In this document: positions 41,947 to 44,243 of the stretch, in pieces
How the letters are laid out: the number at the start of each line of letters is the position of its first letter
How positions within the stretch are numbered: position 1 is the stretch's first letter
From: an uncultured Shimia sp.
GTDB lineage: Bacteria > Pseudomonadota > Alphaproteobacteria > Rhodobacterales > Rhodobacteraceae
Direction of reading: 5' to 3'
NCBI RefSeq assembly: GCF_913054185.1
Contig: NZ_CAJXIV010000023.1
Coordinates: 1 to 44,243, forward strand
Length of the DNA stretch: 44,243 nucleotides
Notes under the pieces: model-generated
The model's input: the letters and a program-made list of their open reading frames with translations, nothing else
Databases searched by the model: none
Told to the model about the DNA's origin: nothing
Translations under genes and position numbers: made by a program

Positions 41947-42828
41947 CTATTTGCGCCGATGCCGATATCGAGTCTTGCCAATGGACGGCACTCCCATCTC
42001 CACCAGGATACTGCCATCATCGTCACTCTTGCGATGAAGCGGATGTTCAACCAGCCCGGCACTCATCGCCAACGCCGCCAGATCTGCCCGATTGGACAGG
42101 CCAGTTTTGTTCAGGATATTGTTCATCCGCTGCCGCACAGCGGACACGGACACACCCAACTGCTCAGCAATCACCTTGTCCTGCAACCCGGCGCCCACCA
42201 TCTCAAGCAGCTCACGCTGTTTGTCGGAAATCTTGTTCCGTTCGGTAAATTCTGCTGCAAAATGGCCGTGATAGGCTTGATGGCCCATGGTCGCGACCGC
42301 TTGCAACACCCAGCCATGGGTCTGAATGATGTGCTTCATCTCCCGCTTGCTGTGATCCCCACAAAAAGTGATCAGCCCCGCCTGCGGAGGCGCATGCCAT
42401 CGCAAGGGGATGGAAAACCCCGCGCGCATGCCGCGACGCGCCGCTTCTTGCAGCACAACATGGCGCGCCTCTGGCATGTGATGGTATTCGTCGACAAATT
42501 CGATCCCCACGGCAACCGGCGTAAGGTGATGCACGGCATGCGTTCGGAAATAGCTCCACTTGGACACATCCGGGTCTTCATTCACCGTATTCAGCCAGGT
42601 GCTGTCATAAGACGTGCGAATGAAGAGCGTTTTTTTCCAATCCGCAAAATTACTCGCAGAAATGAAATCGATGTAGGGCAGGTTCAACAACCGCCCCACC
42701 TCAACAATCAAAGTCCACACCTCCGCCGAGCTCTGCGTGGTTTCCAGGTCCACCAGAAACCCTTGCAACAACTCCGGAATGTGGCGCTCGGCCTGCAACA
42801 GCGGCCGACGCCGGGAGGGGTCGCGCAT
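41947..42828 (-). CDS. LuxR-family regulator without a cognate luxI (LuxR solo)
   Basis: 293 residues. An N-terminal autoinducer-binding-like domain (about 15-180) is followed by a LuxR HTH domain (about 198-258: SDKQRELLEMVGAGL, VIAEQLGVSVSAVRQRMNNIL, GLSNRAD). A basic C-terminal extension of about 33 residues ends in RYRHRRK, which is unusual for the family. W78, D85-P86 and G137 can be matched to conserved positions of acyl-homoserine-lactone receptors. The tyrosine expected four residues after W78 is valine, and the loop between W78 and D85 is short. Ligand is therefore uncertain. No luxI gene is in the window. It follows the HTH-like gene by three bases. Confidence 0.88.
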   Translation of the reverse strand: MRDPSRRRPLLQAERHIPELLQGFLVDLETTQSSAEVWTLIVEVGRLLNLPYIDFISASNFADWKKTLFIRTSYDSTWLNTVNEDPDVSKWSYFRTHAVHHLTPVAVGIEFVDEYHHMPEARHVVLQEAARRGMRAGFSIPLRWHAPPQAGLITFCGDHSKREMKHIIQTHGWVLQAVATMGHQAYHGHFAAEFTERNKISDKQRELLEMVGAGLQDKVIAEQLGVSVSAVRQRMNNILNKTGLSNRADLAALAMSAGLVEHPLHRKSDDDGSILVEMGVPSIGKTRYRHRRK

Positions 42829-42831
42829 GGC

Positions 42832-43290
42832 TTAGACCGTTTCTTCTTCCAGATGCAGCTTCATATCCACGAGCACCTGCTGTAACGCCACAGTTTCCCG
42901 CAAAAGGCGCTTGGCTTCGGCCATCGTGATAATGCCGTCTTCAATGGACTGAGTGTATTCGCCCATCAACATCGCAAACCGCTGGCTCAACGCAATCACA
43001 TCAGAGTTGACGCCACCTTTGTCCGCAGAATTGCGCCGCCGATTGTCATGGCTCAAAGAATTGCCTTTGAGCTCTGCCAATGCCGCTGTGACATGTGGAT
43101 AAGACGCCGCCTCTTCCAGCGCGGCAACCGCATCGATTGGCATAAACCGATCCGCGTGTTCGTCATGACTGGAATAATAGCGGCCCAGAGTGGCCTTGGA
43201 TTTCCCGGTCAGCTCACAGGCCGCCTCAATTCCTACGTCTTTTACCAAAGCCTCGGAGTGTTTCTTAAGATAGCTGTCCACGACGCTCAT
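42832..43290 (-). CDS. Small putative HTH protein co-transcribed with the luxR-like gene
   Basis: 152 residues. The N-terminal half (about 18-38) reads VGIEAACELTGKSKATLGRYYS, like the helix-turn-helix of phage CII-type regulators. A middle linker is rich in N, R and S. The C-terminal half (about 95-150) is a long amphipathic helix (MGEYTQSIEDGIITMAEAKRLLRETVALQ). I do not recognise a named family. It is the first gene of the operon with luxR, four bases apart, so it probably acts in the same control circuit. Its upstream region holds paired dyads that could be autoregulatory sites. Confidence 0.75.
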   Translation of the reverse strand: MSVVDSYLKKHSEALVKDVGIEAACELTGKSKATLGRYYSSHDEHADRFMPIDAVAALEEAASYPHVTAALAELKGNSLSHDNRRRNSADKGGVNSDVIALSQRFAMLMGEYTQSIEDGIITMAEAKRLLRETVALQQVLVDMKLHLEEETV

Positions 43291-43414
43291 ATGTATTCCC
43301 CAAACCGTTTACTCATTAGACCTCCCCCGGAAACGCGGTCTGACGCCTCTAAGGGGAAAGCGGTCAGTCTTTTCCCATATTCGGCTTAACCTGAATTTGG
43401 CATTTGAGAAAGAC

Positions 43415-43459
43415 CGGATGCATTACATCCGACTGTGAGTGACTCGGATACTTATCCGA
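43415..43459. promoter_or_regulatory. Two similar dyads, half-site CGGAT
   Basis: CGGATG-CATTA-CATCCG (43415-43431) and TCGGATA-CT-TATCCGA (43444-43459) are both perfect inverted repeats sharing the CGGAT/ATCCG half-site. Their centres are about 28 bp apart, close to the same DNA face spacing allowed for paired dimers. They lie 125-169 bp upstream of the HTH-like gene start. Confidence 0.55.
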
Positions 43460-43595
43460 ACGTATTAGTTTCCGGCGGGTGAGGCCGGACCCAGGAAAGC
43501 GGTGTGTGATCTGTCACTCACATTCCGCTGGCCGTTTGGCCACGCGACCCGGCCTCATCATCCCCATGGCAATGCCAAGATGCGACGGGTCGCGT
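43435..43595 (+). ncRNA. Candidate structured RNA or attenuator with mutually exclusive helices
   Basis: P1: GTGAGTGAC (43435-43443) with GTCACTCAC (43513-43521). P2: TCGGAT/ATCCGA (43444-43449 with 43454-43459). P3: TCCGGC/GCCGGA (43471-43476 with 43484-43489). P4: TGGCC/GGCCA (43529-43533 with 43538-43542). Alternative P5: GGTGAGGCCGG (43478-43488) with CCGGCCTCATC (43549-43559), one G-U; its first six pairs could also form as a pseudoknot with P3 kept. Alternative P6: ACGCGACCCG (43542-43551) with CGGGTCGCGT (43586-43595), which shares bases with P5 and is followed by TTCACATTT. All pairings are equally possible on the minus strand apart from G-U. No known riboswitch consensus is recognisable. 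Confidence 0.4.
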
Positions 43596-43615
43596 TTCAC
43601 ATTTAGGGTGCCCAT
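43514..43615 (-). CDS. Possible 33-residue basic microprotein
   Basis: ATG at 43615, TGA at 43514, with GGGG about nine bases upstream. The peptide reads MGTLNVKRDPSHLGIAMGMM and goes on with a basic RPGRVAKRP stretch. Composition is protein-like, and the codons for RDP-S and RPGR account for part of the P6 inverted repeat. It lies upstream of the HTH-luxR operon on the same strand. A real small gene here would be an alternative explanation for the structured region; a frame this short may equally be chance. Confidence 0.25.
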   Translation of the reverse strand: MGTLNVKRDPSHLGIAMGMMRPGRVAKRPAECE

Positions 43616-43707
43616 ATCGAGACCCCAATACGACGCTTCAAATTTTCCGCAACGATCTGAGCAGCACAGCCTTGATCCCCACGCCAAATGCGGCTTATCA
43701 CGCGGCC

Positions 43708-44243
43708 ATGGCCAAACTTTACTACAACTACTCCACCATGAACGCCGGCAAATCGACTTTGCTGTTGCAGGCATCTTACAATTACCGAGAGCGCGGCATG
43801 GACACCTACCTGCTGACTGCGCAGTTGGATCACCGCGCAGGCGAAGGCCATATTGCCTCCCGCATCGGCATTTCTGACAAAGCGGATACGTTTGACGCCA
43901 ACTCTAACCTGCTCGACACCATCAAAACCCGGCTTGCAAAAGGTCCGCTGGCCTGTGTGTTCATTGATGAAGCGCAGTTTTTGAACGAGGATCAGGTTTG
44001 GCAACTGGCCCGTGCTGTGGACGATCTAAAAGTACCGGTCATGTGTTACGGGCTGCGCGTCGACTTCCAAGGCAAACTATTCCCGGGCTCCGCCGCGCTT
44101 CTGGCCTTGGCGGATGAGATGCGCGAAGTGCGCACCATCTGTCATTGCGGCAAGAAGGCCACCATGGTGGTGCGCCAAGACGAGCAGGGCAATGTGCTGC
44201 AAGAAGGCGCACAGGTGCAGATTGGTGGCAATGAGAGCTATGT
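43708..44243 (+). CDS. tdk: Thymidine kinase, C-terminus beyond the window
   Basis: 178 codons are present before the window ends. The start MAKLYYNYSTMNAGKSTLLL contains the Walker A MNAGKST (11-17). FIDEAQF is the Walker B motif typical of type II (TK1-like) thymidine kinases, and CHCGKKAT supplies the first zinc cysteines. VMCYGLRVDFQGKLFPGS is the conserved central block. It phosphorylates thymidine in the salvage pathway. No Shine-Dalgarno precedes the ATG at 43708. The long, repeat-rich upstream region could carry its control. Confidence 0.95.
   Translation, partial: MAKLYYNYSTMNAGKSTLLLQASYNYRERGMDTYLLTAQLDHRAGEGHIASRIGISDKADTFDANSNLLDTIKTRLAKGPLACVFIDEAQFLNEDQVWQLARAVDDLKVPVMCYGLRVDFQGKLFPGSAALLALADEMREVRTICHCGKKATMVVRQDEQGNVLQEGAQVQIGGNESY

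Follow-up and report, generated by a model that had tools for sequence, protein, structure and literature searches.

The window, by which we mean the whole stretch of 44,243 nucleotides that was analysed, contains a repeat-bearing intergenic stretch that is flanked by a regulator operon on the minus strand and by tdk on the plus strand:

41947..42828, minus strand: LuxR-type regulator with autoinducer-binding and GerE domains (Pfam PF03472 and PF00196, both above cut-off), second gene of the HTH-luxR operon
42832..43290, minus strand: HTH protein of 152 aa, first gene of the operon and probable binder of the operator described below
43708..44243, plus strand: tdk, thymidine kinase (Pfam PF00265), with its ATG at 43708; the gene runs off the contig

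The HTH protein had no Pfam match and matched the YmfL family of NCBIfam weakly (24.3 bits, cut-off 90), and its profile gave no match to PDB sequences at E-values up to 1. An AlphaFold model of the protein was set aside (mean pLDDT 55.4); a PDB fold search gave no match at E 0.001. The regulator, which has a weak likeness to phage YmfL regulators, is 78-89% identical among 11 aligned relatives, and its gene is present in 151/295 family genomes and 24/25 genus genomes. A LuxR relative (tblastn, E-value 1e-5) was detected at 9/30 family loci with the HTH gene and at 21/80 named loci, i.e., a LuxR gene adjoining the HTH gene is not general among such loci. An argument based on LuxR relatives in four loci lacking the HTH gene, found at a lax E-value of 0.5, was dropped (0/43 at 1e-5).

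The inverted repeats named in the first-pass annotation were all found in the intergenic sequence, with the correction that P1 has 10 bp instead of the nine given there. The P labels, which came without coordinates for the individual helices, were assigned by length match, and two additional repeats were located:

43415-43420 / 43426-43431: additional repeat, 6 bp
43434-43443 / 43513-43522: P1, 10 bp
43444-43450 / 43453-43459: additional repeat, 7 bp
43471-43476 / 43484-43489: P3, 6 bp
43478-43488 / 43549-43559: P5, 11 bp with one G-U
43542-43551 / 43586-43595: P6, 10 bp

That several such repeats together exceed chance, as had been proposed, was borne out by the three perfect inverted repeats of at least 9 bp within positions 43415-43595 (181 nt), a number reached in 0/500 dinucleotide shuffles (mean 0.07) and in 0/500 stretches of 181 nt drawn at random from the window (mean 0.09). 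The folding energy of the same positions was -77.2 compared to -62.0 in 300 shuffles (z about -3.6). Repeats of at least 6 bp were less unusual (seven vs. a shuffle mean of 3.7, with as many in 33/500 shuffles).

Homologs of the region and their pairing were examined in a genus set of 25 genomes, 16 of which match the region by DNA and seven of which (window included) match it over nearly its full length. In the alignment of the seven sequences, positions from about 43385 to 43600 were more conserved than the stretch from there to tdk, and single-base length differences in the genus alignment break reading frames. The predicted RNA and its parts are:

43413..43600, plus strand: structured small RNA, its ends placed by the promoter position and H5
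43415..43431, plus strand: hairpin H1a, 6 bp
43432..43443, plus strand: linker motif copy 1, ACUGUGAGUGAC (family form GUAACGAGUGAC)
43444..43459, plus strand: hairpin H1b, 7 bp, missing in three genomes (G007, G012 and G013)
43460..43470, plus strand: linker motif copy 2, ACGUAUUAGUU
43471..43489, plus strand: hairpin H2 (= P3), 93.3% of cells paired, double changes in 2/6 pairs
43498..43529, plus strand: hairpin H3, 11 pairs, double changes in 6/11, the most in the genus
43530..43541, plus strand: hairpin H4, 4 bp, 92.5% of cells paired, double changes in 0/4 pairs
43542..43595, plus strand: hairpin H5 (= P6), 100/100 cells paired, double changes in 4/10 pairs
43559..43565, plus strand: CAUCCCC, an exposed C-rich segment inside H5

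After addition of three more distant members (10 sequences in total), 95.2% of the 310 cells in the H2-H3-H4-H5 chain were paired and 12 of its 31 pairs had changes on both sides. The genus covariation score was 0.307, as compared to 0.171 in shuffles (0/500 reached it) and 0.06-0.13 when the pairing partners were slid. Compensatory changes were thus present in P3 (H2) and P6 (H5) and, in addition, in H3, a hairpin that the first-pass annotation did not contain. Together with the family-wide 5' domain described below, these changes support the annotation's proposal of a structured small RNA. H1a is invariant in the seven close relatives and therefore untestable for covariation among them; the equivalent H1 covaries family-wide.

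These changes also bear on the view that the repeats act as DNA only, i.e., as palindromic protein-binding sites without any RNA structure. The stretch does separate divergent genes and does contain a genuine site of two-fold symmetry at 43353-43376, and short palindromes such as 43444-43459 resemble binding sites. However, H2, H3, and H5 keep their pairing as their sequences change, the changes in H3 and H5 include G-C to G-U replacements that a DNA palindrome would not favour, and 34 nt separate the two arms of H5. We consider a DNA-only role very unlikely.

P5 and P1 behaved differently from the hairpin chain. P5 had a single double change, was paired in 78.5% of cells, and did no better than shuffles in the genus alignment; P1 had no double change, with an A-C plus an A-G mismatch in four of the seven sequences that have letters there. 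The helices that compete with P5 do exist in the window sequence, as the first-pass annotation had pointed out, but neither P5 nor P1 has covariation support. The comparison thus upholds the hairpins, while the switch built on P5 and P1 is not supported.

A riboswitch or attenuator, as proposed in the same annotation, would place the RNA in the leader of tdk (alternatively, of the luxR operon), where P5 would switch expression by competing with P3 and P6. In its favour are the competing helices themselves and five genomes that have no intact HTH gene and still carry the RNA beside tdk (L165, L166, L167, L168, and L232). The luxR operon, however, lies on the other strand, T runs follow the last stem in some relatives, and tdk has a putative promoter of its own downstream of the RNA:

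43672..43701, plus strand: tdk promoter TTGATC-N18-TATCAC, placed by the position profile of 94 regions

In the profile of these 94 upstream regions, T (0.77), T (0.56), and G (0.52) prevail at -35 to -33 from the A of the ATG, and an A/T-rich block is located at -12 to -9. With the -35 and -10 elements so placed, tdk transcription probably starts on its ATG, a start that is read from the 94-region profile and not from mapped ends. The tdk mRNA hence looks leaderless (43672-43708), which would leave no room for the RNA as a tdk leader; the RNA should end before the tdk promoter, its ends being read from promoter and terminator sequence. A role of the RNA as tdk leader thus seems improbable, and we give very little credence to the riboswitch or attenuator.

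Known RNA classes were searched for using Rfam. The earlier statement that no known riboswitch consensus fits held in an Rfam 15 search of the window (0 matches above the gathering threshold); positions 43291-43720 yielded four matches at E-values of 1.5-8.3, all far below gathering scores, and 17 relatives yielded 0 matches at E-values up to 0.5. A 6S or other housekeeping RNA missed by Rfam in this family would agree with the similar length and with the presence in many family members. The sole 6S (RF00013) match in the window's genome at E-values up to 10, however, is on another contig (C4; E-value 4.6e-4, 30 bits, cut-off 46.4), the predicted fold is a hairpin chain without a large central bubble, and the window and its 17 relatives are without an Rfam match, so that we regard a housekeeping RNA as extremely improbable.

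For comparison across the family, 105 intergenic regions between the HTH gene and tdk were taken (five of the 60 extra stretches and two earlier loci are without tdk). Many share a layout consisting of the operator, overlapping divergent promoters, H1, a GUAACGAGUGAC-type linker, and H2 beginning with CCGG, often with a C-rich loop after it; GGGUGGGG comes next and CAUCCCC further downstream. Covariance modelling at the family level was confined to a 5' domain of 63 positions. The model R1 of this domain, built from 18 sequences, had 50 matches in 99 loci (E-value limit 10), of which two or more were off the expected place. Double changes were present in 11/12 pairs of the domain across these 50 matches, 18 of which are the model-making sequences, and the score was 0.395 vs. 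0.181 in shuffles (0/500) and 0.05-0.15 for slid pairings. The model R2 was run on 80 named loci selected for the HTH gene and not for the RNA; it matched 20 at E-values up to 0.05 and missed 60. All 20 matches were on the strand opposite to the HTH gene and 84-180 nt before its start, and they again had double changes in 11/12 pairs (score 0.365 vs. 0.176, 0/500), although at least six of the 20 genomes had already contributed to the models and one pair of rows has the same sequence.

Among the 295 family genomes, R2 matched 57 (59 places). Fourteen places not adjoining a known HTH start were looked at: five are beside tdk (L165-L168 and L178), eight (L170-L177) were judged to be chance matches, and one (L169) was judged doubtful. 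The latter (L169:1515-1565; genome G075, with no tdk or HTH match) reads as an RNA-like hairpin, GUAACGAGU, and a second hairpin and scored 27.2 bits; it was not counted because the eight others, at 24.0-27.4 bits, look like chance and are mostly coding DNA by eye. Within the genus, the gap between the HTH gene and tdk has grown to 1365 bp in one member (L013 and L060, the same place), where the HTH-side part of the RNA is kept.

Many relatives are too diverged for model recognition. The window itself scored 9.9 bits with R1 (E-value 8.1), via the second linker copy and H2, and its genome had no R2 match in the search of the 295 family genomes. The kinship of the window RNA to the family RNA therefore rests on place, motifs, and layout. 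Its lineage appears to have diverged and to have doubled a hairpin and linker unit, with H1b and linker copy 2 looking like the product of a tandem duplication. In a class-wide sample, R1 matched one of 385 genomes, a family member; this search was insensitive, since at least four other family members, the window's genome included, were not matched. As comparison among genomes shows, a predicted folded RNA of the same strand lies in the same place in many family members.

The strand was judged by counting G-U and A-C combinations, because the consensus energies made no difference between the strands (-130.2 for plus and -130.6 for minus). In the pairs of the family domain (47 of the 50 rows), G-U was found in 61 cells and A-C in 23 of 514, an excess that fits an RNA of the plus strand. 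At the 5' end, the putative promoter of the RNA has conserved boxes and spacing among relatives. At the 3' end H5 is a probable terminator stem; it is followed by T6 in one relative (L015), and a T run after the last stem is also present in another (L009). A stem with a T run was found by script in 16/64 relatives, in some of them away from the 3' end.

The linker motif has 47 plus-strand copies in the RNAs of 64 relatives, 12 on the minus strand, and 8.4 in shuffles. Two or more copies occur in 8/64 RNAs (0.9 in shuffles), and 29/64 have no copy by the pattern used. This repetition, and the apparent duplication of the linker with its hairpin in the window lineage, would be expected if the RNA titrated a protein in the manner of CsrB or RsmY, i.e., if its hairpin and ACGAGU modules sequestered an RNA-binding protein. 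The motif is, however, only moderately unpaired in predictions (0.47 vs. 0.31), the RNAs lacking a copy are many, and there is no known candidate for the protein; we hold titration to be unlikely.

The second conserved element of the intergenic region is a 24-bp operator located between the two divergent promoters, which are inferred from the sequence as follows:

43353..43376, no strand assigned: operator GGGGAA-N12-TTTCCC, 24 bp
43375..43403, minus strand: putative promoter of the HTH-luxR operon (TGACA-N17-TAATGG on the minus strand in relatives)
43403..43412, plus strand: putative -10 element of the RNA promoter, poor here (GAGAAA) and resembling TATAAA in many relatives

The operator was found in 78 of 94 intergenic regions with the HTH gene using patterns that allowed 17 to 35 bases overall, and all 78 were exactly 24 bp long. 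A TGTCA/TGGCA box was located for 58 of the sites, and for 53 of them it lay 21 bp from the operator. The upstream regions of tdk in genomes without the HTH gene, which were not chosen for the RNA and comprise those with a high-scoring tdk instead of a random draw, had the site in 1/43 and the RNA in 1/43 (L232), and the difference in operator occurrence (78/94 vs. 1/43) gave a Fisher test value of 8e-21. In the genus, all 24 genomes with the HTH gene have a site beside it, and the single genome without the gene (G001) has none anywhere.

Genome-wide, 341 exact sites were counted in the 151 genomes with the HTH gene (control pattern: 73) and 50 in the 144 genomes without it (control: 62), where a symmetric site may count on both strands. 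Fourteen of the 50 stem from a repeated near-palindrome, possibly a mobile repeat, in one genome (G297). The mean number of copies per genome across the 295 genomes was 2.26 with the HTH gene (control 0.48) and 0.35 without it (control 0.43), and at least one exact site was present in 138/151 and 30/144 genomes, respectively; the p-value of 1.5e-35 for genomes with vs. without the gene counts genomes without correction for kinship. The operator was also kept in 17 of the 19 regions of the first family set that have the HTH gene and tdk and no LuxR relative, and one locus with a LuxR relative and no HTH gene (L166) has no operator before the RNA. Since the site is enriched genome-wide only together with the HTH gene and is kept without an adjoining LuxR gene, the HTH protein is likelier than LuxR to be its reader and probably binds the 24-bp site.

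Further sites were examined in 12 loci among the 30 listed for the genus; L330, one of the 12, is the locus of the HTH gene. Seven neighbour proteins, one representative per name, were searched against Pfam, and 'ribD-like' was assigned by eye. The neighbours were:

L340, L334, and L344: NrdR and a ribD-like gene near an exact site
L347: ribD-like and UPF0047-like neighbours near a site, with no NrdR frame listed
L331, L336, and L343: DUF2853 near an exact site
L346 and L348: mitofilin-like membrane protein near a site (L348 at 25.6 bits in Pfam, cut-off 27.4)
L341: SmpB near an exact site
L335: PqiA and an ATPase taken as RadA by eye, near an exact site

The sites near nrdR, DUF2853, smpB, and the RadA-like gene suggest links to nucleotide and DNA metabolism. 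In the window's genome, 43353-43376 is the only exact site, so the regulon is a lead from relatives.

Downstream in the RNA, CATCCCC occurs in 31 of 64 relatives (2.5 expected; the exact form is missing in 33/64) and CATCCCCA in 25 of 64 (0.4 expected). The mean predicted probability of being unpaired was 0.75 for CATCCCC and 0.35 for other C-rich 7-mers. By these predictions, CAUCCCC is a probable pairing seed, and it could pair with G-rich ribosome-binding sites. As one such target, an autoregulatory pairing with the HTH leader was considered and rejected: across 22 genomes, CAUCCCC paired with its own HTH leader no better than with swapped leaders (-12.9 vs. -13.1 kcal/mol, p 0.7).

The explanation that we favour, and regard as reasonably likely, is a stand-alone regulatory sRNA that is encoded divergently from the operon of an HTH regulator, shares with it a site read by this regulator, and acts in trans. 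Its transcript, some 190 nt long here and very roughly 150-300 nt in relatives, would start at a promoter that overlaps with the promoter of the HTH operon and points away from it, and would end ahead of the tdk promoter. ACGAGU-type linkers would connect its successive hairpins, and CAUCCCC would be left unpaired. The HTH protein would repress its own operon and switch the RNA on, and the RNA in turn would control mRNAs in trans through pairing of CAUCCCC with G-rich ribosome-binding sites, which is the least certain of these steps.

More speculatively, the RNAs could form an undescribed Rhodobacteraceae family of multivalent scaffolds, in which the ACGAGU modules bind an RNA-binding protein and the CAUCCCC bulge pairs with mRNAs, under the control of a new, weakly YmfL-like HTH regulator whose regulon (the RNA, nrdR-ribD, DUF2853, smpB, and the RadA-like gene) would link the RNA with the metabolism of nucleotides and DNA. 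This combination as a whole we consider decidedly unlikely.

For the roseobacter Ruegeria pomeroyi DSS-3, 30 trans-sRNAs have been listed, with RNA-seq evidence for intergenic sRNAs (PMC4809877), and one of the 30 may be the tdk-side RNA. The word thymidine is absent from the main text of that article, which refers to its Table S1 for coordinates, and the tdk-side RNA is not described in the main-text portions available of PMC4809877, PMC5107571, and PMC2864571. The open-licence literature, supplements aside, yielded nothing on a tdk-linked sRNA in Rhodobacter or R. sphaeroides, nor on the thymidine kinase of Dinoroseobacter shibae.

Many genera of a major marine family thus appear to keep a structured RNA without an Rfam match at one and the same position, adjoined by a probably dedicated regulator whose DNA site is legible from genomes alone. 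The proposed circuit has few components (a single protein, its 24-bp site, the RNA, and a few further sites) and is directly testable, and if the link to nrdR holds, it would bear on how roseobacters tune their nucleotide supply.

In the OxyR/OxyS, GcvA/GcvB, and SgrR/SgrS systems of enterobacteria, the genes for a transcription factor and an sRNA share one intergenic region and have divergent promoters with the site of the factor between them. The HTH gene and the RNA gene likewise share an intergenic region with a site between their promoters, and the proposed circuit would work like the OxyR/OxyS or GcvA/GcvB pairs. Unlike in these systems, the protein is a weakly YmfL-like HTH protein, the RNA is a different one, and its control by the protein is a proposal. 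RNAs of the CsrB/RsmY type carry a repeated short motif between hairpins and GGA in loops; the RNA described here also repeats a short motif between hairpins, but the motif is ACGAGU-like instead of GGA in loops. The CcsR 'cuckoo' RNAs of Rhodobacter and other alphaproteobacteria have C-rich loops with CUCCUCCC. They resemble the tdk-side RNA in having an exposed C-rich segment able to pair with ribosome-binding sites, and differ from it in the segment itself (CAUCCCC here vs. CUCCUCCC), in layout, in locus, and in that the RNA described here has no Rfam match.
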